From assembly GCF_009765865.1 (NCBI RefSeq), contig NZ_LMUQ01000061.1, positions 1 through 50,067 on the forward strand: 50,067 bases of DNA, given 5' to 3'. The stretch comes from Acidisoma sp. L85 (GTDB lineage Bacteria; Pseudomonadota; Alphaproteobacteria; Acetobacterales; Acetobacteraceae). Below the pieces are notes generated by a model, which saw only the letters and a program-made list of their open reading frames with translations, was not told where the DNA came from and searched no databases. Made by a program: the position numbers and the translations under genes. Positions 16,372 through 34,600 of the stretch are shown piece after piece. Position 1 is the stretch's first letter, and each line of letters opens with the position of its first letter.

Positions 16372-16372
16372 C

Positions 16373-17407
16373 TCACACCTCTCCCGAGCGGCGCGACACG
16401 GACCGAACCGCCACGACGAGCAGGATCAAAACGCCTTGCACTCCATTCACCCAGTAGCTCGACACGTTGAGAAGCTGGAAACCGTTGATGAGGCAGCCGA
16501 TAAACAACACGCTCAGGATCGTGCCGCCGATCGAGGGCAGCAGCCGGCGCGAAAACACCGCGCTCATCAGGCTCGTCAGCACAACGGAGAGAAGAATATC
16601 GCCCGAACCCGGCGAACTGCCGGAAAGCCGCGCCGCCTGCACAATGGCTGCCAGCGCCACCAGCAGACCCGCCGACACATAGCTCAGCGCAAGATAAAGC
16701 GGCACGCGCAACCCGGCCGACCGCGCTGCTTGCACCGACCCGCCGACCGCCTGAAGCCGCAATCCCCAAGGCGTCGCATGCACCACGACCAGCAGCAGCA
16801 GCGCCGTGCCCAGGAAAGTCCAATCGGTCAGCGAAAAGCCCAGCGGCGTGGCACCCGCGATATAGGCGAGCAGCGGGGAATTAGCCGTCAGCACCGTATT
16901 CTGTGTGAGCACCAGTTCCAGCCCGGCGCAGATATTCATTACCGCCAAGGTCGCCAGCAACGGCAGAATACCGAGCCCGACAACCGCAAAAGCGTTGACG
17001 AGCCCAACTGAAGCCCCCGCCGCAAAAGTCAGCACCGTCGCGGTCGCATCCCCCAAGCCGGCATTGACGGCCACCGTAAAGACCGCCGCGCAAAGGCCGA
17101 GATTGGCACCGAGCGAAAGGTCGATCCCGCCACGGATAACGTCACCTCCGCCACCGATGATGACGATGCTCATGCCGAAGGCGAGCAGCGCCAGCACCGT
17201 CGATTGCTCGACCACATTGGTCAGATTGCCGCGCGTGAGAAAGCCGGGCGCCGCGATCGCGAAGACAACAAAGACGATGAGCAGAGCGCCGATGGCGGCA
17301 AAGCGAACGAAGCCCCCCCGCCGGTTTCTTTTCAGCGGCGGCACCTCAGCCTCGGCATCCTCGGTCGCGAGAGCGACGCCGAGACGCTGATCGATCGCCC
17401 CGTCCAT
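16373..17407 (-). CDS. ABC transporter permease, RbsC type (second subunit)
   Basis: A 344-residue permease paralogous to the following one. The family motif appears as GMSIVIIGGGGDVIRGGIDLS, with a short Gly-rich insertion (GGGGDVIRG) compared with the usual SAGGIDLS form. Hydrophobic spans fill the rest, after a charged N-terminal cytoplasmic stretch of about 28 residues. The ATG overlaps the stop of the ATPase gene (TGATG). Two distinct permeases suggest a heterodimeric channel. Confidence 0.86.
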   Translation of the reverse strand: MDGAIDQRLGVALATEDAEAEVPPLKRNRRGGFVRFAAIGALLIVFVVFAIAAPGFLTRGNLTNVVEQSTVLALLAFGMSIVIIGGGGDVIRGGIDLSLGANLGLCAAVFTVAVNAGLGDATATVLTFAAGASVGLVNAFAVVGLGILPLLATLAVMNICAGLELVLTQNTVLTANSPLLAYIAGATPLGFSLTDWTFLGTALLLLVVVHATPWGLRLQAVGGSVQAARSAGLRVPLYLALSYVSAGLLVALAAIVQAARLSGSSPGSGDILLSVVLTSLMSAVFSRRLLPSIGGTILSVLFIGCLINGFQLLNVSSYWVNGVQGVLILLVVAVRSVSRRSGEV

Positions 17408-18918: not shown

Positions 18919-18920
18919 CG

Positions 18921-20132: not shown

Positions 20133-21523
20133 TGGGCGGCTTTCAATGTCGTGTGGCGAGAGGCGGCGGCGGGATGCTGCGCGCCAAGACGCGGGCCGCT
20201 GCCAGGAAACATTTTCTGGCGCAGCGTGCCGGCGCGATACTCGGTCTTGTACCGCCCGCGCCGCTGCAATTCCGGCACCAGAAGATCGGAGATATCGGCG
20301 AAGGTCTCGGGCGTCACGACATAGGCAAGATTGAACCCGTCGAGGTCAGTCTCCGCGATCCAGGCTTCCATCTGATCCGCGACTTCAGAGGCTGATCCCA
20401 CCAGCAGCGGCCCGAAACCGCCGATACCGACATGCTCAGCCACTTCGCGCACGGTCCAGGTCTTGTCCGGATCGGCCGTGGTGAAGGATTCCACCGCCGA
20501 ATGCACCGCCTCATTGCGAATATACCGCACGGGCTCGTCCAAATCGTAGACCGAGAAATCGATCCCGGTCCAACCCGACATAAGCGTCAAAGCGCCCGCA
20601 TGGCTGATGTAGCGCCGGTACTCCGCATGCTTCTCGCGCGCCTCCTCGCCCGTCCGGCCGACAATGGCCGTGGTGAGATTGAAAATGCGGATCGACTCTG
20701 GGGCGCGGCCATACAGCGCGGCGCGCCGACGGATGTCGGAAACATAACCCTTCGCCACGGTCTTGCTCGGCGCCGCCATGAAAACGCATTCGGCATGGCG
20801 CGCCGCGAAGTCGCGCCCCTTGCCGGAAGTACCCGCCTGGAACAACACTGGCGTCCGCTGCGGAGATGGCTCGCTCAGATGAATCGCATCCAGCTTGAAG
20901 AACTCGCCCTCATGCTTGATGCGATGGACCTTCGCCGGATCGGTGAAGATACCGCGCGCGCGGTCGCGCAAAACAGCATCGTCCTCCCAGCTGCCCTCCC
21001 AAAGCTTGTAGACCAGATCCATATATTCCTCGGCGATCTGGTAACGTGTATCGTGCTTCGGCTGCGATGCAGCGCCGGAAACTCCACGCGCCGCGCTATC
21101 CAGATAGCCGGTGACGATATTCCAGCCGATACGGCCCTTGGTCAGATGGTCTAGCGTCGACATGCGCCGCGCGAAGGTGAACGGCGGCTCGTAGGATAGC
21201 GTGCAGGTCACGCCGAAGCCGAGATTCTCAGTCACCCCCGCCATGGCGGAAACGGTCAGCAGCGGGTCATTCAGAGGAATCTGCGTCGCCTCGCGCAGCG
21301 CGGTATCCGTATTGCCGCCATACACATCGTAGACGCCAAGCACATCCGCCAGAAACAGCGCATCGAACTTGCCACGCTCCAGAATTTTCGCGAGGTCGGT
21401 CCAATAGGATAGGTCGATGTAGCGATCCGCCCGGTCGCGCGGATGCCGCCACAGCCCAGGCGACTGATGCACGACGCAATTCATGTCGAAGGCGTTGAAA
21501 AGGATCTCGCGGGTCGCGCTCAT
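20129..21523 (-). CDS. LLM-class FMN-dependent monooxygenase, NtaA/SnaA/DszA family
   Basis: A luciferase-like monooxygenase of about 464 residues. The family motif GRIGWNIVTGYLDSAARG is clear, as are the FDALFLADVLGVYD segment and the LFQAGTSGKGRDFAA flavin-phosphate region. Enzymes of this family (nitrilotriacetate, pristinamycin and dibenzothiophene-sulfone monooxygenases) use FMNH2 from a separate reductase. I chose ATG at 21523 (MSATREILFNAF), 8 bases after the stop of the upstream SfnB gene; the frame stays open to 21643 but overlaps that gene. Flanked by two SfnB-type genes, it probably acts in the same oxidative pathway. Confidence 0.88.
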   Translation of the reverse strand: MSATREILFNAFDMNCVVHQSPGLWRHPRDRADRYIDLSYWTDLAKILERGKFDALFLADVLGVYDVYGGNTDTALREATQIPLNDPLLTVSAMAGVTENLGFGVTCTLSYEPPFTFARRMSTLDHLTKGRIGWNIVTGYLDSAARGVSGAASQPKHDTRYQIAEEYMDLVYKLWEGSWEDDAVLRDRARGIFTDPAKVHRIKHEGEFFKLDAIHLSEPSPQRTPVLFQAGTSGKGRDFAARHAECVFMAAPSKTVAKGYVSDIRRRAALYGRAPESIRIFNLTTAIVGRTGEEAREKHAEYRRYISHAGALTLMSGWTGIDFSVYDLDEPVRYIRNEAVHSAVESFTTADPDKTWTVREVAEHVGIGGFGPLLVGSASEVADQMEAWIAETDLDGFNLAYVVTPETFADISDLLVPELQRRGRYKTEYRAGTLRQKMFPGSGPRLGAQHPAAASRHTTLKAAQ

Positions 21524-21531
21524 CGTCTCGC

Positions 21532-22755
21532 TCACACCCAGGCGTGGCGCGGAGGCAGCACGCCGTTGAGGGCATGATTGCCGATCAGCGCGTATTTCCA
21601 GCGCACCGGATCGTGCAGCGTATGGGTGCGCGCATTGCGCCAATGCCGGTCCAGCCCGTGCTGCGCCAAGGTCGAGCGCGTGCCCGCCAGTTCATGCAGC
21701 TTGTTACCCGCCAGAATCGCGATCTCAGTCGTCAGCACTTTGGCTTCAGCGACCTTGAGTGAAGCCTCACCCACCGTCTGCTCGTTCGCCTCCGCGATCG
21801 CGCGGTCCACCGCATAGCCAGCCTGTTCCAGGATCGCCTCAGCTGCGTGAAGCCGCAGGAAAAGGTCGCCGACCGCCGCGATAGTATAAGGATCTTCCCA
21901 CGCGTGATCTTGCCCACTGTCGATCCATGGCCGCGACTGAGTGCGCACGAACCGCACGGTATCGGCGATGGCGGCGCGCGAGATGCCCAGATCAACCGCC
22001 GCCTGAATGATCTGGGACACGGGCCCATTGGCGGAGGGCTGGTCATAGCCGAGATAGGCGGGCACCACGTTCCGCGCCTCGATCAAGACATTATCCAGCG
22101 ACACGCTGCCACTCGCGGTGGTGCGCTGGCCAAAGCCAGACCAATTATCCGTGATCTTCAGGCCCGGCGCCTGGGGATCAGCAAAGGCGAGATAGACCTT
22201 GCCGTCCTCGCCAGTCGCCGCGATCGGGATGATATCCGCGAAAAGCGCGCCGGTGGAATAGAACTTTTCGCCGGTGACCCTAAACGCGTCGCCGTCCGCC
22301 ACCAGTTTCGTATCGAAGACGCCGGCATTCTTGCTGCCCGCCTCGGAAAACGCATTTCCGAACCTGCGGCCTTCCAGCACCCCGGCGTAGAAGCGGGTCC
22401 TCTGCTCCTCGTTCCCGGTAAACCGCAGAGCCTCCACCACGCCAAGATGGTTCTGCGGAATTTGCCCGATCGAGGGATCAGCCTCAGAGATCATGGCGAT
22501 CACCTCGGCGACGGTCGCGAAGGAAACCTCGGCTCCGCCGTAACCGCGCGGCACCGTCATGCCCCAAAGGCCGCTGCCGGAGAAAAGGTCGAGTTCGGCG
22601 CGCGGCAGAATACGCTGCTGATCCCGCGCGATCGCCTCCTTCGCCATCTGAGGCGCCAGCTCCCGCGCAACCGCGATTGCCTCCGCGTCACTGCGGATGA
22701 CGGTGGCAGGGGCGCGAGAGAAGGCGACGCCCTTGTGGCCGGCGATCTGATCCAT
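21532..22755 (-). CDS. SfnB-family acyl-CoA-dehydrogenase-like flavin oxidoreductase (copy 2)
   Basis: The first gene of the operon, about 407 residues, and a clear paralogue of the SfnB protein at 18921. Shared blocks include SGLWGMTVPRGYGGAE, SIGQIPQNHLG, EKFYSTGALFA, and a nearly identical C-terminal region (KLHELAGTRSTLAQH through HDPVRWKYA). I chose ATG at 22755, preceded by AAGG seven bases upstream; a TTG two codons earlier is also in frame. The sequences have clearly diverged outside the core, so the two copies probably differ in substrate or form a mixed oligomer. Confidence 0.87.
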   Translation of the reverse strand: MDQIAGHKGVAFSRAPATVIRSDAEAIAVARELAPQMAKEAIARDQQRILPRAELDLFSGSGLWGMTVPRGYGGAEVSFATVAEVIAMISEADPSIGQIPQNHLGVVEALRFTGNEEQRTRFYAGVLEGRRFGNAFSEAGSKNAGVFDTKLVADGDAFRVTGEKFYSTGALFADIIPIAATGEDGKVYLAFADPQAPGLKITDNWSGFGQRTTASGSVSLDNVLIEARNVVPAYLGYDQPSANGPVSQIIQAAVDLGISRAAIADTVRFVRTQSRPWIDSGQDHAWEDPYTIAAVGDLFLRLHAAEAILEQAGYAVDRAIAEANEQTVGEASLKVAEAKVLTTEIAILAGNKLHELAGTRSTLAQHGLDRHWRNARTHTLHDPVRWKYALIGNHALNGVLPPRHAWV

Positions 22756-22824
22756 GCTCAAACCTTGTGCAGCAGCAATATTACGAAGCGAAACGCGTGA
22801 ACCCCGTAGCGTAACGCAGCGAGC

Positions 22825-22892
22825 GATCTAACGCAAAAACACCTACCGTCAACGATATTGTTATAATATGCTATCTTAAATAGTGTTATTTG
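22825..22892 (-). promoter_or_regulatory. AT-rich control region upstream of the SfnB-LLM operon
   Basis: This stretch is strikingly AT-rich against its high-GC surroundings. On the minus strand a candidate promoter reads TTGACG (22852-22847), 16-base spacer, TAGATC (22830-22825), ending about 70 bases before the ATG at 22755. Just upstream lie two short inverted repeats, ATATT/AATAT (22855-22869) and CTAT/ATAG (22871-22883), which could be an activator or repressor site. No regulator gene adjoins the operon. The gap 22756-23019 has no convincing gene. Confidence 0.5.
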
Positions 22893-23019
22893 GACGAGGA
22901 CCGATCCATGAGCGCGTGCAGGACGCCCGGTGGCGCACCCAGCGCCGGCGCCTGCTCAGCTCACGCCGAGCAGAGAGCGCGCGCCACGAACTCCGAGCGT
23001 GGTGGGACCAGACGTTCTC

Positions 23020-23859
23020 CTACGCCGCGCAGATCTCCTTGACCGACTTCATCACGGCCTCGGTGCTGAAGACCCGGTCGAGCCAGCCGTCCCGAAAAAT
23101 CTGCGGCTTGGCCTGTTCGATCGCGTAAAGCGCGCCATCGGAGAACTTGCCCTCCGGAAAAACCCCAAAGGCGATCGACAGGCCGATATTGATATGCCCC
23201 AGCATGAAATCGACCGCCGCCTCGCGCGGAACCCCCCGGCGCACGACATCATCCACGGCCTCCTTCATCGCGAGGCACAGCGTAATGCCGACGGTTTCGG
23301 ACAAGGCCGGCTCCAGCATCGCGATATTCTCGACCGTGCAGCGATGCGCCCGCATCACCGGCTTGTAGATTTCTCGCGCCACTTCCTCGCACAGCGCATA
23401 ATGCGCTTCAGGCCCCTGCATCAGCGCGCAAACGATATGCTGCTTGGCGTGAATGCCGCCGAAGAAATCGTTCTTCGCCACCGGGTCGGTCTCGTCATTG
23501 AAAATCGGCGGATGGCAGGGATGGGTCACGAAGTAAGTCACATCCGGGCGCACCGGCATTTCGCCCGCATAGGGCGCCGCGGCGTCGAGTACGATGAGCG
23601 CCGTGCCGGGCCGCACCTTGCCGATGATGTCGTGGGCGATCTTGCCGATCAGCCGGTCCGGCACCGCCATCACCACCACATCGGCCTGGCTCAGTGCAGT
23701 GTCCATTTCGACGCAATCTGCGCCAACCGCTTGCTTGAGCCGCTCGCGCCCTGCCTCGGAAACCTCGACATGATCGACGGAAAATCGCGATCCCTGCAGG
23801 TTCGTGGAGAGACGCACACCCATCTTTCCGCCAGCACCGAGTAAAGCGACCTTCGTCAT
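23020..23859 (-). CDS. apnO: D-apionate oxidoisomerase-like dehydrogenase
   Basis: A 279-residue NAD-linked dehydrogenase with a phosphogluconate-dehydrogenase-like C-terminal domain. The Rossmann motif KVALLGAGGKMG is at the N-terminus, followed by VVVMAVPDRLIGKIA and the THPCHPPIF segment of this subfamily. Its relatives include ApnO, which oxidises D-apionate and moves a hydroxymethyl group to give 3-oxo-isoapionate. The assignment rests mainly on context: the DUF1537 kinase gene lies 15 bases upstream and the RuBisCO-like gene is in the same cluster. It is the last gene of its operon. A dehydrogenase for another branched or C4-C5 sugar acid cannot be ruled out. Confidence 0.78.
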   Translation of the reverse strand: MTKVALLGAGGKMGVRLSTNLQGSRFSVDHVEVSEAGRERLKQAVGADCVEMDTALSQADVVVMAVPDRLIGKIAHDIIGKVRPGTALIVLDAAAPYAGEMPVRPDVTYFVTHPCHPPIFNDETDPVAKNDFFGGIHAKQHIVCALMQGPEAHYALCEEVAREIYKPVMRAHRCTVENIAMLEPALSETVGITLCLAMKEAVDDVVRRGVPREAAVDFMLGHINIGLSIAFGVFPEGKFSDGALYAIEQAKPQIFRDGWLDRVFSTEAVMKSVKEICAA

Positions 23860-23874
23860 CGGACTATCCTTGGT

Positions 23875-25275
23875 TCAAATTGGTTTCGAGGAGGACTCGC
23901 CGCCCGCCTTTATGCGAGCGAAGTAGTCCGGGCTGCCCATCTGGCCGCCCTTCAGAGCCAGTTCCAGCGCGGCATGGGCGGGGTCATCGGAATGCGCCTT
24001 GCACAGCGCCGCTCCGGGCACCGTCGGCGCCAGCGCGCTCAGCGCATAGACGCCGAGCGCCAAAGCCGCGTGGCTCGATGTGTCGCCGCCCGCGATGATT
24101 CCGCGATCGATTCCGGACTTTCGCATGACACGATCCAGGATGCGGCCGAGGCCGTCCCCGATGCGGTCATTAACCGTGTCCAACGCGACGCCAGAAGTTT
24201 CCACCACACGCCGCAATTCGGGCAGCGACGGATCATCCGGCCCCCGCGCCGTATAGATGATCGGGTCCAGCCCAGCCGACAGCGCCTCAAGCGCCGCCGC
24301 CGAGGCGCGATCCTTCTCCCTCTCCCAAGCCGCGCCATCGACCGCGGCCGTGGGATCAAGCCGAATACCCAGGAAACCGTGTTCCTCGGCCCAGGCGATC
24401 TGATGCGCCGTCACCGGCGAGCAGGAGCCCGACACCCCGACGATCCGCGCCGCCGCTGGCGCCGCACGCGGCGGTTCGGCCACCGGAATGAGCCCCGCCC
24501 GCTGCCAATGGGCGATCAGCGCGTATTCGACACCCTGGGAGCCGACAACGAATTGCATCGCCTCCCGATGCTCCCAGACCAGCCGCCCGGCTTCCGCGAG
24601 CGTCTCCTCATCGACAACATCAAGCGACATGATCTGGGCACCCTCGGCCCGCGCGATGGCGAGCGCATCATCCGCGCGTCCCTGCTTCATCGCAACGAAG
24701 TCGATCAAGCCCGAAGGAATAGCCGTCTGGGTCGCAAGATGCCGGGCGAGATCCGCCTCATGCATCGGCGTGACAGGGTGGCGGCTCATAGTCGGATGGC
24801 GGTCGAGCCGATATCCCACGCCCGCAACCGTCGCGAACAGATTCCCGAAGGCCTGGTAGCGGTGAATAGCGGGCGCCGCCGTGATCATGGGAATCCAACG
24901 ATTGCCGAAAATCTCGTCGCCGATCTCGATCGCCGCGCCAATGGAGCCGACCTCGCGCGAGGAATCGAAGGTCGAGCAGATCTTGTACTGCGCGAGTGGC
25001 GCACCGGTAGAATGCAACGCCGCGAAAATGGGCGGCAAGGCGACGCGCATCCAGTCGGGACTCTTGGACCGCGCGATGCCCGCGATGCCGATGCCTCGAA
25101 GGTTAGGGAACCGCGCTAGCTGCTCCGGCCGCGGCACGTCGAAGAACAACACGCTAGGTAGGCCCGCGAAGGTCAAAGCCTCCATCACGGCGGCCGAGCC
25201 CGTAAAGTCGTCACCGTAGAAGGCTATCAGCGGCCCAGCCGGCAGCGGCAAAGGTGTCGTTCTGCGATCACTCAT
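23875..25275 (-). CDS. oiaK: DUF1537 four-carbon acid sugar kinase family, probable 3-oxo-isoapionate kinase
   Basis: A 466-residue ATP-dependent kinase of the DUF1537 family. Visible motifs are FYGDDFTGSAAVME at the N-terminus, YKICSTFDSS, the SGSCSPVTAHQI segment, IIAGGDTSSHAAL and LKGGQMGSPDYF. In the apionate pathway this family phosphorylates 3-oxo-isoapionate at O4. The start is unusual: the only good ATG (25275) lies inside a TATAATG sequence with no room for a ribosome-binding site, suggesting a leaderless message. apnO follows 15 bases after the stop. Other family members act on 3-oxo-tetronate, so the substrate is inferred from neighbours. Confidence 0.83.
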   Translation of the reverse strand: MSDRRTTPLPLPAGPLIAFYGDDFTGSAAVMEALTFAGLPSVLFFDVPRPEQLARFPNLRGIGIAGIARSKSPDWMRVALPPIFAALHSTGAPLAQYKICSTFDSSREVGSIGAAIEIGDEIFGNRWIPMITAAPAIHRYQAFGNLFATVAGVGYRLDRHPTMSRHPVTPMHEADLARHLATQTAIPSGLIDFVAMKQGRADDALAIARAEGAQIMSLDVVDEETLAEAGRLVWEHREAMQFVVGSQGVEYALIAHWQRAGLIPVAEPPRAAPAAARIVGVSGSCSPVTAHQIAWAEEHGFLGIRLDPTAAVDGAAWEREKDRASAAALEALSAGLDPIIYTARGPDDPSLPELRRVVETSGVALDTVNDRIGDGLGRILDRVMRKSGIDRGIIAGGDTSSHAALALGVYALSALAPTVPGAALCKAHSDDPAHAALELALKGGQMGSPDYFARIKAGGESSSKPI

Positions 25276-25282
25276 TATACGA

Positions 25283-25313
25283 TCATTATACCAGCTAAAT
25301 CATGTGGAGCCAA
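25283..25313 (-). promoter_or_regulatory. Promoter and candidate GntR operator of oiaK-apnO
   Basis: On the minus strand, TTGGCT (25313-25308), a 17-base spacer and a perfect TATAAT (25290-25285) form a good sigma-70-type promoter. The expected transcription start falls 3-6 bases before the oiaK ATG. The -10 sits in TGGTATAATGA (25293-25283), and a second CATTATAC unit is repeated 11 bp away (25273-25280 and 25284-25291, plus strand). A near-identical motif lies upstream of the importer binding protein at 33458-33468. NanR, in the same regulator family, binds GGTATA repeats, which fits control by the neighbouring GntR protein. Confidence 0.55.
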
Positions 25314-25360
25314 ACGCCTTCGCTACGGCGCAATGATTCGATATCGAACGCCAACTCAAG

Positions 25361-25466
25361 CACCGTCATGGCACGCGCAGGCGGGGCGGCCCTCGCGTGC
25401 CATCCACGCCTGTCTTTGTTGCGCAAGCAAGGCGTAGATGGCATGCCTTCGCATGCCATGACGGTG
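25361..25466. repeat. Double extragenic palindrome (REP/BIME-like element)
   Basis: Between the gntR stop and oiaK lies a nested inverted repeat. The outer arms CACCGTCATGGCA (25361-25373) and TGCCATGACGGTG (25454-25466) match perfectly over 13 bp. Inner arms 25394-25410 and 25430-25446 match at 15 of 17 positions. The right half alone forms a perfect 9-bp stem, ATGGCATGC/GCATGCCAT, with a CTTC loop (25438-25459). This head-to-head layout and the CGTCATGGC core resemble a palindromic repeat common between genes in many alphaproteobacteria. It may end the gntR transcript or stabilise it. The gap 25314-25513 has no convincing gene. Confidence 0.75.
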
Positions 25467-25513
25467 AGGGAGTGAGCATGGTTCAAACCAGAGACATCCT
25501 GCTTTAGCGAAAG

Positions 25514-26239
25514 CTACGAAGCGGATTCCACCGCCTGCGACAAAAACAAACCACGGCTGCGTTGCAAATGGTCCCGCATCGTCTGCGCAGCTCCCACCTC
25601 GTCATGGGCGATAATCGCATCGAGGATCAGACGATGTTCCTCCAGCGTGATGCGCTCGTGGCCTTTCCAATGCAGCAGACCAGAATGAAACGCACTGAGC
25701 CATTGCAGCATCGCGCGGCTCACCACTTCGAGGATCACATTCCGCGTGATGGCGGCAATGACCGTATGAAACTCCATATCCGCCGCGACGAAACGGCCGG
25801 CGTCGCGGTCAAGAAACGCGGTCTGCCGCGCCAGTGCCTCTTCCAGTCGCTGAATATCGGCGGGCTCCGCCATGCGCGCGGCCTCCCGCACCATGCCCAC
25901 CTCGAAGAAAACCCGCGCATCCTGCAACTGCTTGAGGGATTGCGGCTGCGTCGCCAGAACATGCCGCGCCGCATGGTCGATCTGCTGCATGACATCGGCG
26001 ATCGAGGGATGAGCGATGCGCGCCCGCTCCCCGTGGGTGATGGTAATGAGACCGAGCTTTTCCAGCCGCTGCATCGCCTCCCGCACCGCCGGCCGTCCGA
26101 CGCCATAAGCCACCATGAGCTCCCGCTCAGACGGCATCTGCGCGTCGGCACCGTAAGCCCCGGTCTCGATCTCTTGCAGGAGGCGATCGAAGACCTCGTC
26201 CGACAGCTTGCGCCGCGTGATCTTCTGCGGTGCGACCAT
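25514..26239 (-). CDS. GntR-family transcriptional regulator, FadR/FCD subfamily
   Basis: A 241-residue regulator. The winged helix-turn-helix spans about residues 8-75, including QMPSERELMVAYGVGRPA and REAMQRLEKLGLITI. An FCD ligand-binding domain follows, with FFEVGMVREAARM and the metal-ligand-type histidines in MEFHTVI and EEHRLIL. It resembles NanR/FadR-like repressors that sense sugar acids. The ATG at 26239 is 10 bases after the rpiB-like stop; an in-frame start at 26308 would overlap that gene. It probably controls the whole apionate-type cluster, with candidate sites at 25283-25293 and 33458-33468. Confidence 0.87.
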   Translation of the reverse strand: MVAPQKITRRKLSDEVFDRLLQEIETGAYGADAQMPSERELMVAYGVGRPAVREAMQRLEKLGLITITHGERARIAHPSIADVMQQIDHAARHVLATQPQSLKQLQDARVFFEVGMVREAARMAEPADIQRLEEALARQTAFLDRDAGRFVAADMEFHTVIAAITRNVILEVVSRAMLQWLSAFHSGLLHWKGHERITLEEHRLILDAIIAHDEVGAAQTMRDHLQRSRGLFLSQAVESAS

Positions 26240-26249
26240 CAAGCGCTGA

Positions 26250-26720
26250 TCAGGCTTCCACCCGCTCCTGGTGATATTTCCGGTCCAATTCCTTGATCCC
26301 CTCGACATTGGCGGCCGATGAGCCTTGCGGATCGAAATGCGATTCCAAGAATTTGTCGACGATCGCCTTGGCGACTTCCGTTCCGATCACCCGCGCGCCC
26401 ATCGTGATGATATGCGCGTCGTTGCTTTTCGCGGCGCGCTCGGCCGAGTAGGTGTCATGCGTCTGCGCCGCGCGAATGCCGGGAACCTTATTCGCCGAGA
26501 TACACACGCCGATGCCGGTGCCGCAGCACAGAATCCCGCGATCGAAACGCCCTTCCAGGATCGCGTTAGACACACGTTCGGCGAGCGAGGCGTAAAGCTC
26601 CTTGCCGCCCGGCACCTCACGCCCAAGATCGACGACCTCATGCGGACCGCCGGATAAATGCTTGAAAATGACATCCGACAGCGGCTGTCCCGCGCTGTCT
26701 CCGCCCACGACGATCCTCAT
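26250..26720 (-). CDS. RpiB/LacAB-family sugar-phosphate isomerase, probable D-erythrulose 4-phosphate isomerase
   Basis: A 156-residue isomerase of the RpiB family. The catalytic cysteine is in [15 protein letters not shown], and [18 protein letters not shown] follows as in RpiB/DerI proteins. Classical RpiB interconverts ribose 5-phosphate and ribulose 5-phosphate. In erythritol and apionate pathways a homologue converts D-erythrulose 4-phosphate to D-erythrose 4-phosphate. Here it overlaps the triose-phosphate-isomerase-like gene as ATGA and lies in the RuBisCO-like operon, so the tetrose role is the better guess. Confidence 0.85.
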
Positions 26721-27547
26721 GTCGATAACTCCTCCGTCCCGTTCTGGGTCGATGCGGCATTGGCCGCCTCTGCGACGATGGCGACGATCTCCGCCAAGCC
26801 GTCCGCGTTCCAGGCATAGCGCCCCACGAAGAGCCCGTCGACATCGGGGATCACGGCCAGCTCCGGAGCATTGGCCGCGGTCACGGAACCGCCGTATAGA
26901 ATGCGGGTCGCCGTGGCATTGGCCGCGCCAAACCGTTCGGCGAGCGCAGCCCGCAGCCGCGCGAGGCGGTCCGCGACATAGTCGGGATCGGCGGCGGCGG
27001 CGGCACCGATGGCCCAGCGCGGCTCATAGGCCAGCACAAGGCGCGGCAGGGCATTCGCCGGCTGATCGGCCGTCGCGGTAGCGAGCTGATCCGCCAGAAC
27101 ATCATCCGACCGACCGTCCCGCTTATCCTCCGCCTTCTCGCCTAGACAGAGGATCGGGGTAAGCCCGTGGCGCAGAGCAGCGTTTACCTTGAGGCGCACC
27201 GCGGCGTAGGTTTCGTTGAAATGCTGCAGCCTCTCGGAATGGGCGAGTGCCACGTATCGGCAACCCGCCTCGACGAGCATCGGGGCGGAAACCTCCCCGG
27301 TCCAGGCGCCGCGATCATCCCAATGGACGTTCTGGGCGCCGACGCCGATCTGCGACCCTGCGACGCGCGCGCCCGCCGCGCTCAGCGCGGTGAATGGCGG
27401 CAGAACGAAGACATCGAGCCCATGATGGTTGATGCCGGCCAGCCTTTCGCGCAGCAGGTCGATATAGGCCAGCGTATCGGCGATCCCATGGTTCATCTTC
27501 CAGCCGGTGCCGACGAGTTTGCGCCCCCGCTTCGCTGGCAGGGTCAT
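26717..27547 (-). CDS. Triose-phosphate isomerase family protein, probable L-erythrulose 1-phosphate isomerase
   Basis: A TIM-barrel isomerase of 276 residues. The active-site set is intact: Lys in GTGWKMN, His in [11 protein letters not shown], Glu in [10 protein letters not shown], and the phosphate loop LYGGSV. Compared with housekeeping TpiA the first motif reads GTGWKMN instead of GNWKMN, as in tetrose-phosphate isomerases of the LerI/EryH group. ATG at 27547 overlaps the RuBisCO-like stop as ATGA, with GAAGGG upstream; the longer open frame would run into that gene. It would convert L-erythrulose 1-phosphate to D-erythrulose 4-phosphate. Confidence 0.85.
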
Positions 27548-28833
27548 TGCGCGCCCTTCTCGCCGAAGGCCGCGATCGCCTGAGCGAGTTCGGGATGCTC
27601 GCGCGCATAATCCGCGAGCGGAACCCCGGCCACCGCCGCTTCCCAGGCCTGAGTGATGGCGCGCACGCCAGCGCCAGCCCCGCCCGGATGCCCCATGATC
27701 CCGCCGCCGCCTAGATACAACAAATCGATGGACCGCCCGTTTCGCGCGAAAGTCTCCGGCGCCTGCCCGCCCCATTGCCCCGATCCCACCACCGGCAAAG
27801 CACGGTCGTCGTCGGAAAGAAGCGGCGTGGTGCAGTCACGGAAGGAGCGCAGGAAGGACTCGTCCGGCTCCCAATATTTCGCCCCAATGCCATTGACCTG
27901 AAACTGGTCGATACCGAGCAACCGCCACAGCACCTGATAGACGCTGAAATCGAGCCCCAGATCCGGATGCCGCGTCAGCATGTCCCAGCCGCTACGATGC
28001 GCATGCAGCACCAAGCGCGAGCGCTTCCGCAAAAATGCCAGTCCGCCATAGCCGACCGAGTTAATGTTGATCACCGCCGCATTGCCGCCCGCATCCGCCA
28101 CGATGTCGTGCTGGCGCAGCATGGTCTCCGGGTCCGCGCTGGAAATGCCAAAGGCATACATGACCTTCCGCCCGGTCCGCTGTTCATGGTCCAGAATCAC
28201 CGGCATCACGGCCCGCACCCGCGCTTCGAGCGGCGCATAGCCGGGATTCATCATCTTCTCGTCGTCTTTGATGAAATCCGCGCCGGCCTCGACCAGTTCG
28301 CGCGCAACCTCCGCCGTCTGTTCAGGCGTCAGTCCAAGCGCGGGTTTGATGATGCTGCCGATCAGGGGCCGGCCATGGACATTCGCGAGCCTGCGGCTGC
28401 CGGCGATGCCGAAAGCGGGTCCCGGATGCGCCTTGATAAACGCGGGCGGCAGCCGCAGCCCGACGATACGCGCACCCGACAGGCCGCGCACCGAAAAGAC
28501 CCCGCCGAAAGCGATGGTGAGGAGGGCCGCGATATCCGTGCCAATAACTTCCAGCGGGAAATCGACATCGACATCCGCGCGCTTATAGGGCCGCGGATTC
28601 TGGGAATTGACCGCATCCTGGGGATAAGCCGGCCGCTCATGCGGTTCCAGCATCCGGATATCAACGACCCGCGCCGCGCATCTCGCTTTGAGATCAGCAG
28701 TTTCGCCCGGCACCGCGACGAAGGTTCCGGTCGATTGGTCGCTCGCGATCTTTTCCGCGAGCCGCCCGATATCGCCCGACGTCTCAATCCGATACGTCAG
28801 CCGGATCGCGCTGTCGTTCGACACTTGGCTCAC
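27544..28833 (-). CDS. oiaX: RuBisCO-like protein, probable 3-oxo-isoapionate 4-phosphate decarboxylase
   Basis: A 429-residue form IV RuBisCO homologue. Equivalents of key RuBisCO residues are visible: Lys163 in IIKPALGL, the carbamylated-lysine motif ADFIKDDE (Lys189, Asp191, Glu192), His279-Arg280 in LHAHRSGW, Lys319 in GAKYWE, and Ser351-Gly in VVGSGQWGG. Two positions differ: RuBisCO Glu60 appears to be Asp32, and His327 appears to be Gln312. So it should not fix CO2. RLPs of the apiose pathways decarboxylate or split 3-oxo-isoapionate 4-phosphate, and the adjacent TIM- and RpiB-like genes favour the decarboxylase giving L-erythrulose 1-phosphate. GTG at 28833 overlaps the permease stop (GTGA). 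Confidence 0.83.
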   Translation of the reverse strand: MSQVSNDSAIRLTYRIETSGDIGRLAEKIASDQSTGTFVAVPGETADLKARCAARVVDIRMLEPHERPAYPQDAVNSQNPRPYKRADVDVDFPLEVIGTDIAALLTIAFGGVFSVRGLSGARIVGLRLPPAFIKAHPGPAFGIAGSRRLANVHGRPLIGSIIKPALGLTPEQTAEVARELVEAGADFIKDDEKMMNPGYAPLEARVRAVMPVILDHEQRTGRKVMYAFGISSADPETMLRQHDIVADAGGNAAVININSVGYGGLAFLRKRSRLVLHAHRSGWDMLTRHPDLGLDFSVYQVLWRLLGIDQFQVNGIGAKYWEPDESFLRSFRDCTTPLLSDDDRALPVVGSGQWGGQAPETFARNGRSIDLLYLGGGGIMGHPGGAGAGVRAITQAWEAAVAGVPLADYAREHPELAQAIAAFGEKGAQ

Positions 28834-29855
28834 GATCGACCTGCCACTTTAGTTCCAGCGCCGCCCTGCGTGGTTGGTATCGCGCGCTTCACCGTCCGCC
28901 CCCTGCCACCACCCGCCAGCGACAGCACGGCGATCACCACAACGCCCTGCACGATATCCTGCATCCCGGAAGGCAACCCGGCAATCTGCATGGTCGCCAC
29001 GATGAGGATGAGCAGCACGCAGCCGAACAAGGTGCCGACCGCTGTCGAAGATCCGCCCATGATAAGCGATCCGCCCAACACCACCGCGCCAAGCGATTGC
29101 AGCAGGTAGGGACCGCCCATCTCCAGAAAAGCGCCGCCGACATAAGCTTGCAGCAGCAATCCATCGAGCGCCGCGAGCAGTGAGCTAATCAGAAAAGTAG
29201 CCGCGACAACCCGCGTCACGCCAATGCCGGAGAAATAGGCCGCACGCGTGCTCTGCCCGACAGCCGAAAGCGTGCGCCCATAGACCAGCCGCCCCAGGAC
29301 GATGCTGCCGACAACAACAGCCACCACCGCGAGCATCGCGACCACGGGAAAACCGCCGACCCGCGCCGTTGTCAGCCACTTCAGCGTCGGGCTGACGCCG
29401 TAGCTCACCAGCTCCTTATTGGCGAAGAGACTGGCGGTAGCCAAAATATATCCGGTCGCAAGCGTCGCGATAATCGCCGGTATCCGGAAAGCCAGCACAA
29501 GCACCGCGTTCACGCTGCCAACGACAATGCCAATCCCCAACGTCGCCAACACACCAAGCCATAACCGGCTGTCGTGGCCCTGGATGAGGATCGTGCTGAC
29601 ATAGGCGCTCAGCGTCAGCACGTTGGGAATGGACAGGTCGATATTCCCGCGACCCGCCGTAATCACGAACATTTGGCCCAGCCCGGCCAATGCCAGGAAC
29701 GACGCTGAAACCGCAACGCCGGAGAGACTCTGCAGGCTGAACCGGCTGGTGATGAGGGACAGCACGAACCACAGCAGCACGACGCCGATGAGCGCCCAAA
29801 TCCACCGGTTGCGCTGGCTCCAGTCGATCAGCCGGCCCTCGCCCAGACCCGCCAT
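28830..29855 (-). CDS. ABC transporter permease, RbsC type
   Basis: A permease of about 341 residues for the sugar-acid importer of the apionate-type cluster. It has the RbsC pattern: LAGLGQMFVITAGRGNIDLSIPN, then SLGAVVLGGSLIMGGSSTAVGT and many hydrophobic spans. In the GGIDLS signature the residues read RGNIDLS. ATG at 29855 shares one base with the stop of the ATPase-permease fusion (TGATG). The longer open frame to 30041 lies inside that fusion and is rejected. The RuBisCO-like gene begins at its stop codon. Confidence 0.88.
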   Translation of the reverse strand: MAGLGEGRLIDWSQRNRWIWALIGVVLLWFVLSLITSRFSLQSLSGVAVSASFLALAGLGQMFVITAGRGNIDLSIPNVLTLSAYVSTILIQGHDSRLWLGVLATLGIGIVVGSVNAVLVLAFRIPAIIATLATGYILATASLFANKELVSYGVSPTLKWLTTARVGGFPVVAMLAVVAVVVGSIVLGRLVYGRTLSAVGQSTRAAYFSGIGVTRVVAATFLISSLLAALDGLLLQAYVGGAFLEMGGPYLLQSLGAVVLGGSLIMGGSSTAVGTLFGCVLLILIVATMQIAGLPSGMQDIVQGVVVIAVLSLAGGGRGRTVKRAIPTTQGGAGTKVAGRS

Positions 29856-32323
29856 CACTGCGCCCTCCGCCGGATCAGCGTGGCCCGCAACCCGAGCATG
29901 CCGAGCAGCAGCAAGCCCTGAACCGCCGCATTGTAATCCGTGCTGACATTTAGCGCGCCAAGCAGGGCGCCGATCAGCGACAAGACGATCGCCCCGGCGA
30001 CCACGCCCCAAGGCGACAGCACCCCCCCGATCAGGCTGCACCCGCCGATCACCACGGCCGCGACGCTGGAAAGCGTGAAGGGACCACCGACATTGATGTC
30101 GCTCGCGGTATTCGCGGCGGTCAGCGAGACTCCGGCGATCATGCCGAAGATTCCCGCCAAACCATATCGGATCACCGCATAGCGCAGCGCCGACCAGCCG
30201 CTACGCGCGAGCGCCGGCGCATTGTTGCCAAAAGCGCGCAGCACCACACCAAGCGGCGCGCTGTCGAGGAAGACCGTCACCCCTGCGACGATGAGGATGA
30301 TAATGACGGATGTCGGCAAATGCGGAATGGACCAGCCGAACAACGACGTGACCCAGTCGGGGCTGCTGCCGCCGGGCGCTGGTTGCAGGGAATACCCCGC
30401 TCCCATCCAAATGAACGAAGCGCCTAGCGTCACCACGATCGCGGGAATGCGGCGCAACTGGATGAGCGCGCCGATCAAACTATACGCAATCAGCGCGACA
30501 ACAATGGTGACCGCGCCCAACAGCGGCCGGTCGACCAGCAGAGTCGCACTCACGACATTCATGAGCCCGGCAAAAGCACCGATGCTGAGGTCGATCTCGC
30601 TTCCGCCCACGACAAACATCTGCGCGACAGCCACCAGCACCAGCGCAACCGACGGCCCAAGCAGAAGATCGAGACCGAACACGCTCGCCGCCGCATGATT
30701 GACCAGCATCATGACGCCCAGAACCAGCGCCAGACTCACAAAAGGCGCGGCCTTGATGACTGTCTTGCCCCAGTCGCGATGAAGCCGCTCGACACCCTCG
30801 CCCTCTCCGCCGCGTGCGACTTGCTCCGAAAAAGAGGCGCCAATGATGGCGTCCTCGGTGATCTCCTCGCGCCGCAGCTCGCGCACTATGCGGCCCTTGC
30901 TGAAGACCAGCACCCGGTCGCATTCCATGAATTCGAGGTCTTCGGTCGAAAGCCAAACAATCAGCCGCCCGGCCCCCGCGGCATCGGCGAAGAGCCCATA
31001 AAAATCCGTCTTCGCCGCCACATCGACACCGCGTGTCGGATCGTCGAGCAGGATCGTCGGCGAATCGCTCACCAAAGCGCGGCCGACCAGCGCCTTCTGC
31101 TGATTACCACCGCTGAGATCGAGAATGCCGGAGCCAAAGCGACCAGGATCCAGCCGCAGCTTCTCGGCGGCATCGAGAATGGCGGGGCGATCCTCGGCCG
31201 CGGCGAAAGGCGCGAGCGCGAAACGCCGACCGATGCGCTCGATATCCATATTGGCGAAGACATTCCAGAACGCGAAAACGCCTTCTCTCTGCCGGTCTCC
31301 CGAGACGAAACTGACGGCGCCCGAGCGCTCGATCCCGCCCGAATGACCGGAGGCAGCGAAAATGTCGCGCAGAAACTCCTTCTGCCCCGCGCCTTCCAGA
31401 CCCGCCAGACCCACGATCTCGCCTTCGCGCAGAAGGATCTCGCTGCCGATCTTCTCGACCACCGGGCCACTCACCCGCAGCCGCACTGGCCGTTGCGAAA
31501 CCGGCGCCGCCTCATGCGCGCGCCGCAAAGCGACTTCCGCGCCACCGCCCATCGCCTGAACCAGTGCCTGGATCGAGGTATCCGCCGCTGCACCGCGCCA
31601 GGCCAGACGCCCATTGCGCAGGACCATAACATCGGCCGCGACATCGACGATTTCATGCAGCTTGTGGCTGATGAAAATACTCGCGAGCCCCGCTTCGGCC
31701 TGCTGATGAATGAAAGCCCGCAGTTGTCGGCTGCGTTCCAGATCCAGCGACGATGTCGGCTCATCCAAAACAAGCAGCCGGATGCGCGGCGCCGAGGCGG
31801 CCCGCGCGATCTCCACCATCTGGCGCTGACCAATGGAAAGGTCATCCACCACATGATCGACATCGATGCCGTTGCCGGGAAACACACGGTCGAGCGCGGC
31901 ACGGGCCCGCGCACGATAGGCGCGGCGCCATCCGGGCACCGGCCGCGCCAGATCCGGCGCCTCCAGAAAGAAGTTCTCCGCGACCGAAAGATTGGCGCAG
32001 AGCGAAAGCTCCTGATGCACGATACGAATGCCGTGAGCCTGCGCCTCGGTGGGACCGAAGCGATCCCAATCCGCCGCACGGCCATCCAGCTCCAGCGTAC
32101 CGAAATCGGGCCGGCTGACGCCGCAGAGCGCGCGCATCAGCGTGCTCTTCCCCGCGCCATTGCCGCCCACAAGTCCGAGAATATCGCCCGGCCGCACGAT
32201 CAGCTCGACCCCGTCATTGGCGAGGGTCGAGCCGAAAGCCTTGGTAATGTCGCGCAGCGCAACGAGAGGCACGGTCGCGTCAACGCTTTTGGCGTGCGGC
32301 GAGGCCGTGCTGAGATCACTCAT
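29855..32323 (-). CDS. Fusion of RbsA-type double ATPase with an RbsC-type permease
   Basis: An 822-residue fusion. Residues 1-505 are a tandem ATPase: Walker A GGNGAGKST (53-61), signature LSIGQRQMVEIARA from 162, Walker B LLVLDEPTSSLD from 183; then a second domain with GLEGAGQKEF, LSGGNQQKAL (from 403) and ILLDDPTRGVDV (from 424), in which Asp428 replaces the usual catalytic Glu. Residues 520-822 are a complete permease with the GGSEIDLSIGAF signature. The separate permease encoded next would supply the other membrane half. The start lies 20 bases after the binding-protein stop region. No frameshift is needed; the join is in frame. Confidence 0.9.
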   Translation of the reverse strand: MSDLSTASPHAKSVDATVPLVALRDITKAFGSTLANDGVELIVRPGDILGLVGGNGAGKSTLMRALCGVSRPDFGTLELDGRAADWDRFGPTEAQAHGIRIVHQELSLCANLSVAENFFLEAPDLARPVPGWRRAYRARARAALDRVFPGNGIDVDHVVDDLSIGQRQMVEIARAASAPRIRLLVLDEPTSSLDLERSRQLRAFIHQQAEAGLASIFISHKLHEIVDVAADVMVLRNGRLAWRGAAADTSIQALVQAMGGGAEVALRRAHEAAPVSQRPVRLRVSGPVVEKIGSEILLREGEIVGLAGLEGAGQKEFLRDIFAASGHSGGIERSGAVSFVSGDRQREGVFAFWNVFANMDIERIGRRFALAPFAAAEDRPAILDAAEKLRLDPGRFGSGILDLSGGNQQKALVGRALVSDSPTILLDDPTRGVDVAAKTDFYGLFADAAGAGRLIVWLSTEDLEFMECDRVLVFSKGRIVRELRREEITEDAIIGASFSEQVARGGEGEGVERLHRDWGKTVIKAAPFVSLALVLGVMMLVNHAAASVFGLDLLLGPSVALVLVAVAQMFVVGGSEIDLSIGAFAGLMNVVSATLLVDRPLLGAVTIVVALIAYSLIGALIQLRRIPAIVVTLGASFIWMGAGYSLQPAPGGSSPDWVTSLFGWSIPHLPTSVIIILIVAGVTVFLDSAPLGVVLRAFGNNAPALARSGWSALRYAVIRYGLAGIFGMIAGVSLTAANTASDINVGGPFTLSSVAAVVIGGCSLIGGVLSPWGVVAGAIVLSLIGALLGALNVSTDYNAAVQGLLLLGMLGLRATLIRRRAQ

Positions 32324-32342
32324 CGCTTAGTCACGGAACTGC

Positions 32343-33374
32343 CTATTTCTGCGACAGCAGATTCGTCTTGACCCAATCCTGCGAATAGGACGGGCTGACG
32401 ATGATGTTCGGCGGCAGATTGGCGTAGCTCTTCAGATTGGCCTGATCGACGGTCGCCACCGGCATGATGAGCTTCTGCGGCACATGCGCGCCCTGCACGA
32501 TGGCAAGGCTCAACCAGAAAGCCGCGCCGCCGATACCGGGCGTCGTGTTCATCGAGATGGTCGTATAGCCGTTGCTCGCATTCTCCTGCGCCCACCAGCG
32601 GATGAAGTTCGAGCTGCCGCCGCCCTCGATGACAGGCATGTGGCCCTTATACTGGCCGCCATACTGGTCGAAGGCCTGCGCCACGCCGTAATCGTCACCG
32701 CCCTGGCCGAGCACCGCATCGACATGCGGCAGGCTGGGCAACACATTGGCGATGGCCGATTGCGCGACCGAAGCGGTGGCTTGGCCATAGACCGTCGCCA
32801 CGACCTTCACATTCGGATTGTTCTTGAGCACGGCTTCCTGTGCTGCATACATCGACACGTCCGGCGCCGAACCCTTCACGCCACGGACCAGGATGATGTT
32901 GCCCTGGTTATGGATGAGCTTCAGCGCGGCGGTGGCCTGCTGCGTCTTATAGCCGGTGAAGTCGAAATTGAGCTGCGTATTGCAAGGCGCCGAGGCGATG
33001 GAATCGAAGGAAATCACCTTGATCCCGGCGTGGCAGGCTTTCTGGATAATGCCATTCTCCGCCGTCTCGGAAGCGGCATCGACCGCGATCGCATCGACAC
33101 CCTTGAGAATGAGCTCGGCGAGCTGGCTGTTCTGCTGGCTGACGCTGCCGTCGCCGTTCTGGATGATGTAGTCCGAGATCAGGCCGGCCGCCTTGGCCTG
33201 CTTGGCCGCCGCCTCGAAGGCCTCGACCATCTGATGGCGCCAGATGTTGCCGTAATAGGAGTTGGACAAAGCGATGACCGGCTTGTCGGCCGATGCCATC
33301 GCCGGCATGGCCGGTGCGACCATGGCCGCCGCCGCCAAAGCGAGGCTGGGAATAAGCGAGCCAGCAATCTTCAT
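32343..33374 (-). CDS. ABC transporter substrate-binding protein, RbsB type
   Basis: A periplasmic binding protein of about 343 residues and the first gene of the importer/RuBisCO-like operon. A signal peptide (basic MKIAGS start, Ala-rich core) ends near AMASA before DKPVIALSN. The body shows the type I sugar-binding fold: SYYGNIWRHQMVEAFEAAAK, ILKGVDAIAVDAAS and GIKVISFDS. ATG at 33374 has GGAGG eight bases upstream; the longer frame to 33437 lacks such a site. It likely binds D-apionate or a related branched sugar acid, by context only. Confidence 0.87.
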   Translation of the reverse strand: MKIAGSLIPSLALAAAAMVAPAMPAMASADKPVIALSNSYYGNIWRHQMVEAFEAAAKQAKAAGLISDYIIQNGDGSVSQQNSQLAELILKGVDAIAVDAASETAENGIIQKACHAGIKVISFDSIASAPCNTQLNFDFTGYKTQQATAALKLIHNQGNIILVRGVKGSAPDVSMYAAQEAVLKNNPNVKVVATVYGQATASVAQSAIANVLPSLPHVDAVLGQGGDDYGVAQAFDQYGGQYKGHMPVIEGGGSSNFIRWWAQENASNGYTTISMNTTPGIGGAAFWLSLAIVQGAHVPQKLIMPVATVDQANLKSYANLPPNIIVSPSYSQDWVKTNLLSQK

Positions 33375-33457
33375 GACATGTTCCTCCGCGCACCCGTTAA
33401 GCCCGGGCTGAGCGCTGCATATGCCCCGACATGACAAGCCTAGGCAAGGTGATTATC

Positions 33458-33468
33458 TCATCATACCA
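33458..33468 (-). promoter_or_regulatory. Candidate GntR operator upstream of the sugar-acid importer operon
   Basis: The minus strand reads TGGTATGATGA, matching 10 of 11 bases of the TGGTATAATGA element at the oiaK promoter (25283-25293). It lies about 85 bases upstream of the binding-protein ATG and includes TATGAT, a possible -10, with GATAAT just downstream. No good -35 is visible. Two copies of one motif, each in front of one operon of the same cluster, suggest a shared regulator. Confidence 0.5.
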
Positions 33469-33523
33469 CCAGAACCTGCGTTTCTCTGTGCTCGCCCGCA
33501 TAGGCGCGCGTCGTTCGTCCAGA

Positions 33524-33551
33524 TTGACTCTCCTTCGTCCGAGGCGATACC
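33524..33551 (+). promoter_or_regulatory. Candidate fabD promoter
   Basis: TTGACT (33524-33529) is followed after 16 bases by GATACC (33546-33551), about 90 bases before the fabD ATG. The -35 is good and the -10 weak, as is common in alphaproteobacteria. The region diverges from the importer operon on the other strand. Confidence 0.35.
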
Positions 33552-33640
33552 CCGGCACGCCGCGCCGGCATCCGCCGGCGGCCTCCAGGCGGCTGGAGCA
33601 GACATCCGGCTGCGCCGGTCCGCTTCCCGAAGGACATGCA

Positions 33641-34600
33641 ATGCCCGTTAACGCCTTCATCTTCCCGGGTCAGGGGAGCCAGTCCGTCGGTATGGGGCAA
33701 GACCTCGCCGCCGCTTTCGGCGCGGCCCGGGACGTCTTCGACGAGGTGGACGAGACACTCGGACAACGTCTCTCCAAGCTGATGTTCGAGGGACCGACCG
33801 AGGAACTCACCCTCACCGAAAATGCCCAGCCCGCGCTGATGGCCGTCTCCCTCGCCGTCATGCGGGTACTGGAGCGCGAGGGCGGCCTCGTTCTGCCGCA
33901 GAAGGCAGCCCTCGTCGCCGGCCACTCGCTTGGCGAATACAGCGCGCTCGCAGCTGCGGGCAGCCTCCAATTGGCCGAGACCGCGCGGCTGCTACGCCTT
34001 CGCGGGACCGCGATGCAACGCGCGGTTCCCGCGGGAGAAGGCGCCATGGCGGCTCTCCTCGGCACTGAACTCGAACAGGCCGCCGAGATCTGCCGCGAGG
34101 CAGCCACCGACCCGGAGACCGGTGCTCATCAGGTCGTGCAGCCAGCCAATGACAATGGCGGCGGCCAGGTCGTCATCTCGGGGCATAAGGCTGCGGTGGA
34201 GCGCGCTATCGAGATTTCGCGGGCGCGCGGCATCAAGCGCGCCATGCTTTTGCCGGTCTCTGCCCCCTTCCACTGCGCCCTCATGGCGCCCGCTGCCGAT
34301 GCCATGGCAGAGGCGCTCGCCACCGCCGCGATCACGGCCCCGCTCGTGCCGGTTGTCGCGAATGTCTCCGCCGCCAAGGCGACGGACCCGGCCGCCATCC
34401 GGACACTGCTGGTCGAGCAGGTGACGGGCCTCGTGCGCTGGCGGGAGAGCGTGCAGGCCATGGTGTCCATGGGCGTCGACACCTTCATTGAGATCGGAGC
34501 GGGCCGGGTTCTCGCCGGTCTCGTCCGCCGCATCGCGCCGGAGGCGACAACTCGCTCCATCGGCACGCCGGCGGAGATCGAGGATTTCCTCAAAGGCTAA
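33641..34600 (+). CDS. fabD: Malonyl-CoA:ACP S-malonyltransferase
   Basis: FabD loads malonyl groups onto acyl carrier protein in fatty acid synthesis. The 319-residue protein has IFPGQGSQSVGMG at the start, the nucleophile motif AGHSLGEYSAL, the malonyl-binding arginine region RLRGTAMQ, and the catalytic histidine in SAPFHCALM. ATG at 33641 has GAAGGA upstream; the frame continues 70 codons further 5' without family sequence. fabG, acpP and fabF follow on the same strand. Confidence 0.96.
   Translation: MPVNAFIFPGQGSQSVGMGQDLAAAFGAARDVFDEVDETLGQRLSKLMFEGPTEELTLTENAQPALMAVSLAVMRVLEREGGLVLPQKAALVAGHSLGEYSALAAAGSLQLAETARLLRLRGTAMQRAVPAGEGAMAALLGTELEQAAEICREAATDPETGAHQVVQPANDNGGGQVVISGHKAAVERAIEISRARGIKRAMLLPVSAPFHCALMAPAADAMAEALATAAITAPLVPVVANVSAAKATDPAAIRTLLVEQVTGLVRWRESVQAMVSMGVDTFIEIGAGRVLAGLVRRIAPEATTRSIGTPAEIEDFLKG

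Follow-up and report, generated by a model that had tools for sequence, protein, structure and literature searches.

What does Acidisoma sp. L85 do with a RuBisCO-like protein (RLP) whose gene stands directly beside those of a sugar-type importer, and from which compound would the pathway start? The stretch of DNA that raises this question, called the window here, comprises bases 1-50067 of a 606 kb contig (C83) of this strain, whose 6.38 Mb genome is 99.5% complete, and the genes concerned lie on its minus strand between positions 23020 and 33374. We propose, with a probability of about 0.78, that they form a regulated utilisation cluster for D-apionate, a branched acid from a plant cell-wall sugar, with a fused importer for D-apionate and repression of both operons by a NanR-type GntR protein. 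That the cluster breaks down D-apionate by the known RLP-using route is very probable. Sequence families, gene linkage, the lack of ApsD and ApnL orthologues and a shared site were computed here, and from them we infer the cargo, the repression and growth.

Enzymes of a predicted D-apionate route

An earlier note on this DNA had placed here an ApnO-like oxidoisomerase, a DUF1537 kinase, an RLP, triosephosphate isomerase (TIM)-like and RpiB-like isomerases, a GntR regulator and an importer, and all of them were recovered: the cluster genes are open frames on the minus strand, with probable starts chosen by inspection, and profile scans of nine proteins gave family scores far beyond chance. The RLP (27544..28833), which is the genome's only match to the RuBisCO family PF00016, cleared the NCBI curated OiaX model NF042437 over positions 1-412 of 412, with 750.5 bits (4e-226) against a cut-off of 700. 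Methionine salvage had been named as a competing family, and the enolase models of that pathway (MtnW) were missed, with 161.6 bits against a cut-off of 409 and 120.9 against 514, as was the type III RuBisCO model (210 bits against 497). The KDDE motif of the protein aligns with that of the RuBisCO 8dht. The nearest record among the genome_contigs was a proteobacterial metagenome-assembled genome (MAG), JABBOH010000011.1, at 82% identity, and Sinorhizobium meliloti proteins annotated oiaX stood at 67%. Identity was 64-83% to X-type (OiaX) and 42-49% to T-type RLPs, the labels themselves being drawn from RLP identity, and in the RLP tree a branch with 100/100 support split 24 X-type from 24 T-type rows, the window RLP falling in the X clade. 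The trees of this study covered 17 of the 80 genome_contigs loci, after removal of the MAG locus L002, of short duplicates and of matches covering less than 70% of the length. The curated score and the clade support an OiaX-type RLP, with a predicted function as 3-oxo-isoapionate-4-phosphate decarboxylase.

The kinase gene (23875..25275; PF07005/PF17042) encodes a protein whose best model was OiaK NF042436, a 3-oxo-isoapionate kinase, with 547 bits (2.2e-164) against a cut-off of 700; the next best, 3-oxo-tetronate kinase NF043035, gave 161.7 bits against a cut-off of 350. The expectation that the kinase would fall with OiaK therefore stood as to the ranking of the families, and failed as to the OiaK cut-off. 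The genome encodes two further DUF1537 kinases, which exceed the 3-oxo-tetronate kinase cut-off (410 and 531 bits) and so already fill that role. In Brucella pseudogrignonensis (L027), where the OiaX is an accepted one, the neighbouring OiaK-like kinase reached only 474 bits, which implies that the NF042436 cut-off omits pathway neighbours; the proposal that missing it signals a different substrate is weakened by the same protein. We file the kinase as OiaK-like, and an OiaK-type function is supported and was kept as its probable working. Both the RLP and the kinase are distant homologues of enzymes of methionine salvage and tetronate catabolism, but with scores so far under the cut-offs of those families, and with two separate kinases passing the 3-oxo-tetronate model, membership of either pathway is extremely improbable.

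The ApnO-like protein (23020..23859; PF16896, 2.4e-62) scored 330 bits against PDB 5t57, a Cupriavidus necator N-1 protein that we take to be ApnO. In C. necator N-1, the gene next to those of an OiaK-like protein and a T-type RLP has a product that is identical to 5t57 from the methionine on, as seen in the alignment. Homology and context make the window protein a candidate D-apionate oxidoisomerase. The RpiB-like protein (26250..26720), encoded by the only gene of the genome that matches PF02502, passed the DerI model NF051858 (246.2 bits against a cut-off of 240). The TIM-like protein (26717..27547; PF00121, 1.6e-69) carries the motifs GWKMN, AHSER and YEP, the first within the GTGWKMN that had been pointed out before. 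Its identity is 61% to the TIM encoded at the OiaX locus of Methylocapsa and 35-36% to the product of a second TIM gene, of canonical type, elsewhere in the genome; we regard it as a LerI-like candidate L-erythrulose-1-phosphate isomerase.

Taken together, these enzymes would convert D-apionate to 3-oxo-isoapionate (ApnO), its 4-phosphate (OiaK), L-erythrulose 1-phosphate (OiaX), D-erythrulose 4-phosphate (LerI) and finally D-erythrose 4-phosphate (DerI). The reactions and their order are reportedly those of the D-apiose work of Carter et al. 2018. A route from apionate to D-erythrose 4-phosphate had been predicted for this cluster, and it agrees with the OiaX and DerI models passed and with OiaK as the best kinase model, ApnO and LerI being placed by homology and context. 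Parts of the pathway order are given in passages of PMC6302742 and PMC10733421, the latter also describing the LerI and DerI steps and an Escherichia coli strain without its two transketolases (delta-tktAB) that depends on erythrose 4-phosphate, and PMC11747546 describes growth on D-apiose for a Rhodobacteraceae strain whose cluster holds ApnL, ApsD, ApnO, OiaK and OiaX. Gene presence was surveyed in 91 loci as matches above hand-set identity thresholds within the fetched stretch (at most about 10 kb on each side), loci under 13,500 bases (9 of the 79 among L003-L081) being excluded from gene-presence and operator counts. Among the 77 OiaX-type loci, the window included, OiaK-like genes were found in 76, GntR genes in 76, ApsD in 75, ApnO in 67, RpiB in 38 and TIM in 35.

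Two operons and a shared putative operator

The earlier note had described two leftward operons, and the arrangement is consistent with this. The binding-protein gene is separated by 19 bases from the downstream fused importer gene, successive genes from there through the RpiB-like gene overlap by 1-4 bases, and the regulator gene (25514..26239) follows. A gap of 238 bases then precedes oiaK; it contains the sole sigma-70-like site in 22700-33700, a weak one of a kind of which 2.3 are expected by chance, and one copy of a shared operator-like site stands before each block. These features together led us to the two-operon reading. The scan for promoters and terminators gave nothing above chance level, and an Rfam scan of 22000-34500 gave no matches. 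That the genes stand in pathway order held in part: from left to right they run ApnO, OiaK, GntR, DerI, LerI and OiaX, so the second block is in reverse. The gap also holds, at 25362-25466, nested inverted repeats with four ATGGCAYGC copies in alternating orientation, which resemble an element of the repetitive extragenic palindrome or bacterial interspersed mosaic element (REP/BIME) type; this 9-mer has 6 copies in the window against 2.3 expected.

The shared site, GGTATRATGA, matches the window twice (0.09 expected), as GGTATAATGA before oiaK (25283..25292, minus strand) and as GGTATGATGA before the importer operon (33458..33467, minus strand). Across 95 loci (2.0 Mb) it was found 141 times in 83 loci, whereas 60 permuted patterns gave on average 2.45 sites in 2.3 loci and at most 44 sites in 42 loci; these loci are related, and the counts are not independent events. 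Nearly all sites (139 of 141) sit near the estimated start of a cluster gene, at most 350 bases upstream of it or 150 bases into the gene. The nearest gene was that of an RLP for 73 (68 X-type, 5 T-type), of the usual binding protein for 40, ApnO for 15, GntR for 6, the fused-type binding protein for 3, and TIM and OiaK for 1 each, leaving 2 with none; the Methylocapsa locus has one site between the fused importer and ApnO. The regulator belongs to the NanR subfamily of GntR/FCD proteins (NF003011, 273.7 bits for the longer frame 25514-26308, cut-off 260), and it would repress both operons from this putative operator.

The fused importer, its cargo and the point of entry

The importer consists of a periplasmic sugar-type binding protein (32343..33374; PF13407, 9e-43), a fused protein of 822 amino acids (29855..32323) and a second permease (28830..29855; PF02653, 1.4e-26). 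In the fused protein, PF00005 matches in two stretches and PF02653 at residues 555-810, so the earlier description of an importer with ATPase and permease in one frame is correct. Ten more loci of the family were compared, from all genomes with the binding protein except that of the window and G130: nine (L172-L180) have the same fusion as a single frame of 823-856 amino acids, and in L181 the gene is interrupted at unread bases; the frame of the congener G130 has 850 amino acids, and the Methylocapsa locus ends inside the importer gene, which leaves the fusion out of view there. Fused relatives at 55-59% identity occur on plasmids of S. meliloti, Paraburkholderia sprentiae and R. jaguaris, in the last of these spread over two recorded frames; among the best 15 of 82 records all others stood at 44% or less, and the one from Agrobacterium leguminum sits among unrelated genes. 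With at most five candidates scored per genome, the binding protein was found in 12 of the 397 genomes of the family, that of the window included, the other 11 at 65-77% and the next matches at 41% or less. An RLP gene of OiaX or T type stands no more than 4 kb from it in 8 of these 12 genomes. Linkage of the binding protein or importer to pathway genes recurs in Methylocapsa (L003), in P. sprentiae, beside an annotated oiaK, and in S. meliloti LMB1, where the fused importer accompanies a T-type RLP, OiaK, ApnO, ApsD and ApnL.

The usual RbsB-type importer, whose binding protein (4ry0/5ibq type) presumably takes apiose as its ligand, was present in 71 of the 91 loci, all 71 of which have ApsD. 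The fused importer was present in 13, with ApsD in 5 and without it in 8, and a genome-wide search agreed (ApsD at 58% or more in 5 of the 13 genomes); 10 of these 13 loci (L172-L181) had been chosen for holding the binding protein and are not a random sample, and 3 of the 8 ApsD-negative genomes are just 79-87% complete. In 4 of the 5 ApsD-positive loci the usual importer is present as well. In an alignment of 27 binding proteins, six motifs (NPF, DR, the R of RS[KQ]G, ND, DG and QP), which we take to form the ribose-binding pocket of RbsB, were found in all 11 usual-type and at the same places in none of the 16 fused-type proteins; all 16 have WR[HR]QM in place of NPF, and one frame has NPF in its leader only. 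Such altered pocket motifs would fit a different, possibly acidic, ligand. The linkage without ApsD and the altered pocket suggest that the cargo of the fused importer is D-apionate itself. In the usual importer, a gene for a predicted DUF2291 lipoprotein separates that of the binding protein from that of the ATPase (L027:14598-15272; P. sprentiae L197:16035-16694), and no DUF2291 match was seen in the window. To the left of the cluster, at 15391-22761, a leftward group of genes has two SfnB-family sulfur-acquisition oxidoreductases flanking an NtaA/DmoA-type flavin mononucleotide (FMN) monooxygenase; a CUT2-type (sugar-type) ABC ATPase and two permeases adjoin these sulfur-scavenging genes, a pairing that seems unusual.

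Consistent with an entry at D-apionate, the absence of ApsD and ApnL genes that had been reported for the window extends to the whole genome at the sensitivity used, so that neither of the two proteins that would complete a D-apiose pathway was found. An ApsD query from G086, which finds ApsD at 58-73% in 6 of 13 other genomes searched, matched no orthologue in this genome; its best match, at 43-46%, was a Gfo/Idh/MocA protein on contig C59, which is 41-47% identical to the cluster-linked ApsD proteins. The ApnL model NF049900 matched nothing in the genome, while the same search had hits in 5 of 16 genomes and passed the cut-off in 2 of these; it did not extend genome-wide to unrelated lactonases. 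An additional search, queried with a divergent ApnL, lacked a control. The C59 protein belongs to a sugar-acid cluster (C59:352000-371900, L134) with a 3-oxo-tetronate kinase, a split transketolase, a D-2-hydroxyacid dehydrogenase-like protein and, by frame inspection, an ABC importer. In the congeners G130 and G217, divergent ApnL-like proteins (28-29% to ApnL) lie between ApnO and ApsD (L117:13214-14896 and L115:7257-8969), that of L117 scoring 265 bits against a cut-off of 750. SMP-30/gluconolactonase-type genes, possible replacements of ApnL, adjoin the fused importer in P. sprentiae (L197:12477-13406) and R. jaguaris (L199:7804-8862).

These proteins bear on an alternative in which the same pathway starts from D-apiose, the fused importer carrying apiose, the C59 dehydrogenase replacing ApsD, and an unrelated lactonase or spontaneous hydrolysis replacing ApnL. 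The similarity of the C59 protein to ApsD speaks for it, as does G130, where ApsD and a divergent ApnL belong to the same series of genes as the fused importer, RLP, RpiB, OiaK and ApnO and no usual importer lies in the fetched stretch. Lactonases may moreover be swapped, since the ApsD-positive G041 and G232 also lack an ApnL match and SMP-30-type genes stand beside the importer. On the other hand, the C59 protein is more distant from all eight cluster-linked ApsD proteins than these are from one another (50-92%), and its neighbours are the split transketolase and the 3-oxo-tetronate kinase; seven further fused-importer genomes (three of them those of 79-87% completeness) have no ApsD match at E 1e-60, and the motifs conserved in the usual importer are missing from the binding protein. 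We consider an apiose start unlikely. Less probable still is that the same chemistry serves a branched sugar acid other than apionate, such as one of the hamamelonate type. It would accord with an importer whose ligand is only predicted and with an OiaK under its model cut-off, but RLP and DerI pass cut-offs set for the apionate route, and the same importer accompanies apionate genes in G130 (ApnL-like) and S. meliloti LMB1 (T-type RLP, ApnL). The six papers listed by a literature search on hamamelonate and carboxyarabinitol pathways all dealt with plant RuBisCO or related carbon fixation.

Several observations weigh against a D-apionate cluster with a dedicated importer and a common operator. 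Besides the kinase score, the ApnO-like protein matched no ApnO equivalog in NCBIfam, the LerI assignment comes from homology and position, and the RLP gene of G130 has no TIM gene next to it. The C59 protein might make apionate from apiose. In 4 of the 12 genomes with the binding protein, the fetched stretch (L178-L181) holds no RLP, although one of these (G221) has a T-type RLP on another contig; in R. jaguaris the importer stands beside the gluconolactonase-type gene, with no RLP in 10 kb. Because these RLP-less loci carry the importer, it may have another or a wider cargo. The exact operator is absent in 12 of the 95 loci (L037, L121, L172, L179-L184, L197-L199), of which 7 (L172, L179-L181, L197-L199) carry the fused importer.

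Mosaic history and known systems

The cluster looks mosaic, an OiaX-type RLP being combined with a kinase related to those beside OiaT-like RLPs. In the kinase tree, the window protein falls with T-linked kinases, as do its counterparts from four congeners (support 96/95), and a tree that forces all X-linked kinases together was rejected (approximately unbiased (AU) test, p 0.0011), a value that is not that of a blind test, since the mosaic idea came after the identities had been seen. ApnO gave the same picture without significance (AU p 0.057, threshold 0.05). Outside the genus, the nearest relatives of both proteins belong to a T-type RLP locus of the same family. TIM and RpiB matches were found in none of the 10 T-type loci, against 35 of 77 (TIM) and 38 of 77 (RpiB) X-type loci; the products of OiaT, glycolate and 3-phosphoglycerate, need no such isomerases, which fits our assignment of the T clade as the probable transcarboxylase OiaT. 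Most simply read, the genus acquired OiaX together with one or both isomerases while retaining its own kinase, the root position, the sampling and the after-the-fact test leaving room for other histories.

A wider proposal, which we put forward tentatively and hold somewhat less probable than its opposite, is that the fused importer and its binding protein serve dedicated uptake of D-apionate (or apionolactone) in at least four proteobacterial families, many under a GGTATRATGA regulon, with some bacteria living on apionate released by others, and that the window lineage swapped an OiaT-like RLP for OiaX and isomerases, altering the end products while keeping kinase and oxidoisomerase. RLPs show the RuBisCO fold reused for carbon release instead of fixation; among the best 40 of 366 plasmid relatives of a T-type protein, 28 are still named carboxylase. 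A cluster with the apionate half alone, its own importer and an operator makes it testable whether apionate is a nutrient in its own right and whether exchange of one RLP changes the outcome of a pathway, and importer and operator are handles for recognising such clusters in public genomes.

Among known systems, the OiaX pathway of the Agrobacterium radiobacter K84 type (in passages of PMC6302742) shares with the window ApnO, OiaK, OiaX, the LerI- and DerI-type genes and GntR, and across the 79 loci besides the MAG locus the RLPs are 64-71% identical to that of the window. The window genome differs from that type in that searches of it found no ApsD or ApnL orthologue, in its importer, and in an OiaK (and, not significantly, an ApnO) closer to loci with the other RLP type. 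The second known system is the D-apionate pathway via OiaT, a transcarboxylase/hydrolase RLP, of the Xanthobacter autotrophicus type (described in part of PMC6302742): outside the genus, the window kinase and ApnO are nearest to a T-type locus, and 6 of 10 T-type loci have the same fused importer, whereas the window RLP is of OiaX type. Like the window importer, the usual rhizobial RbsB-type importer (PDB 4ry0, 5ibq) is a CUT2-type ABC importer beside the pathway; in the window, by contrast, ATPase and permease are fused, the DUF2291 lipoprotein gene is lacking and the binding protein is without the motifs shared by the usual type. In Escherichia coli, as stated in an excerpt of PMC8012715, NanR binds GGTATA repeats in a (GGTATA)3 operator. 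The window regulator is likewise a GntR/FCD protein of the NanR subfamily and its putative operator also begins with GGTAT, but here a single GGTATRATGAGT...ATCA element stands before apionate genes and not before sialic acid genes. While the enzymology is known, the cluster is a variant worth recording for its apionate-only set of genes, its second type of importer and its shared putative operator.

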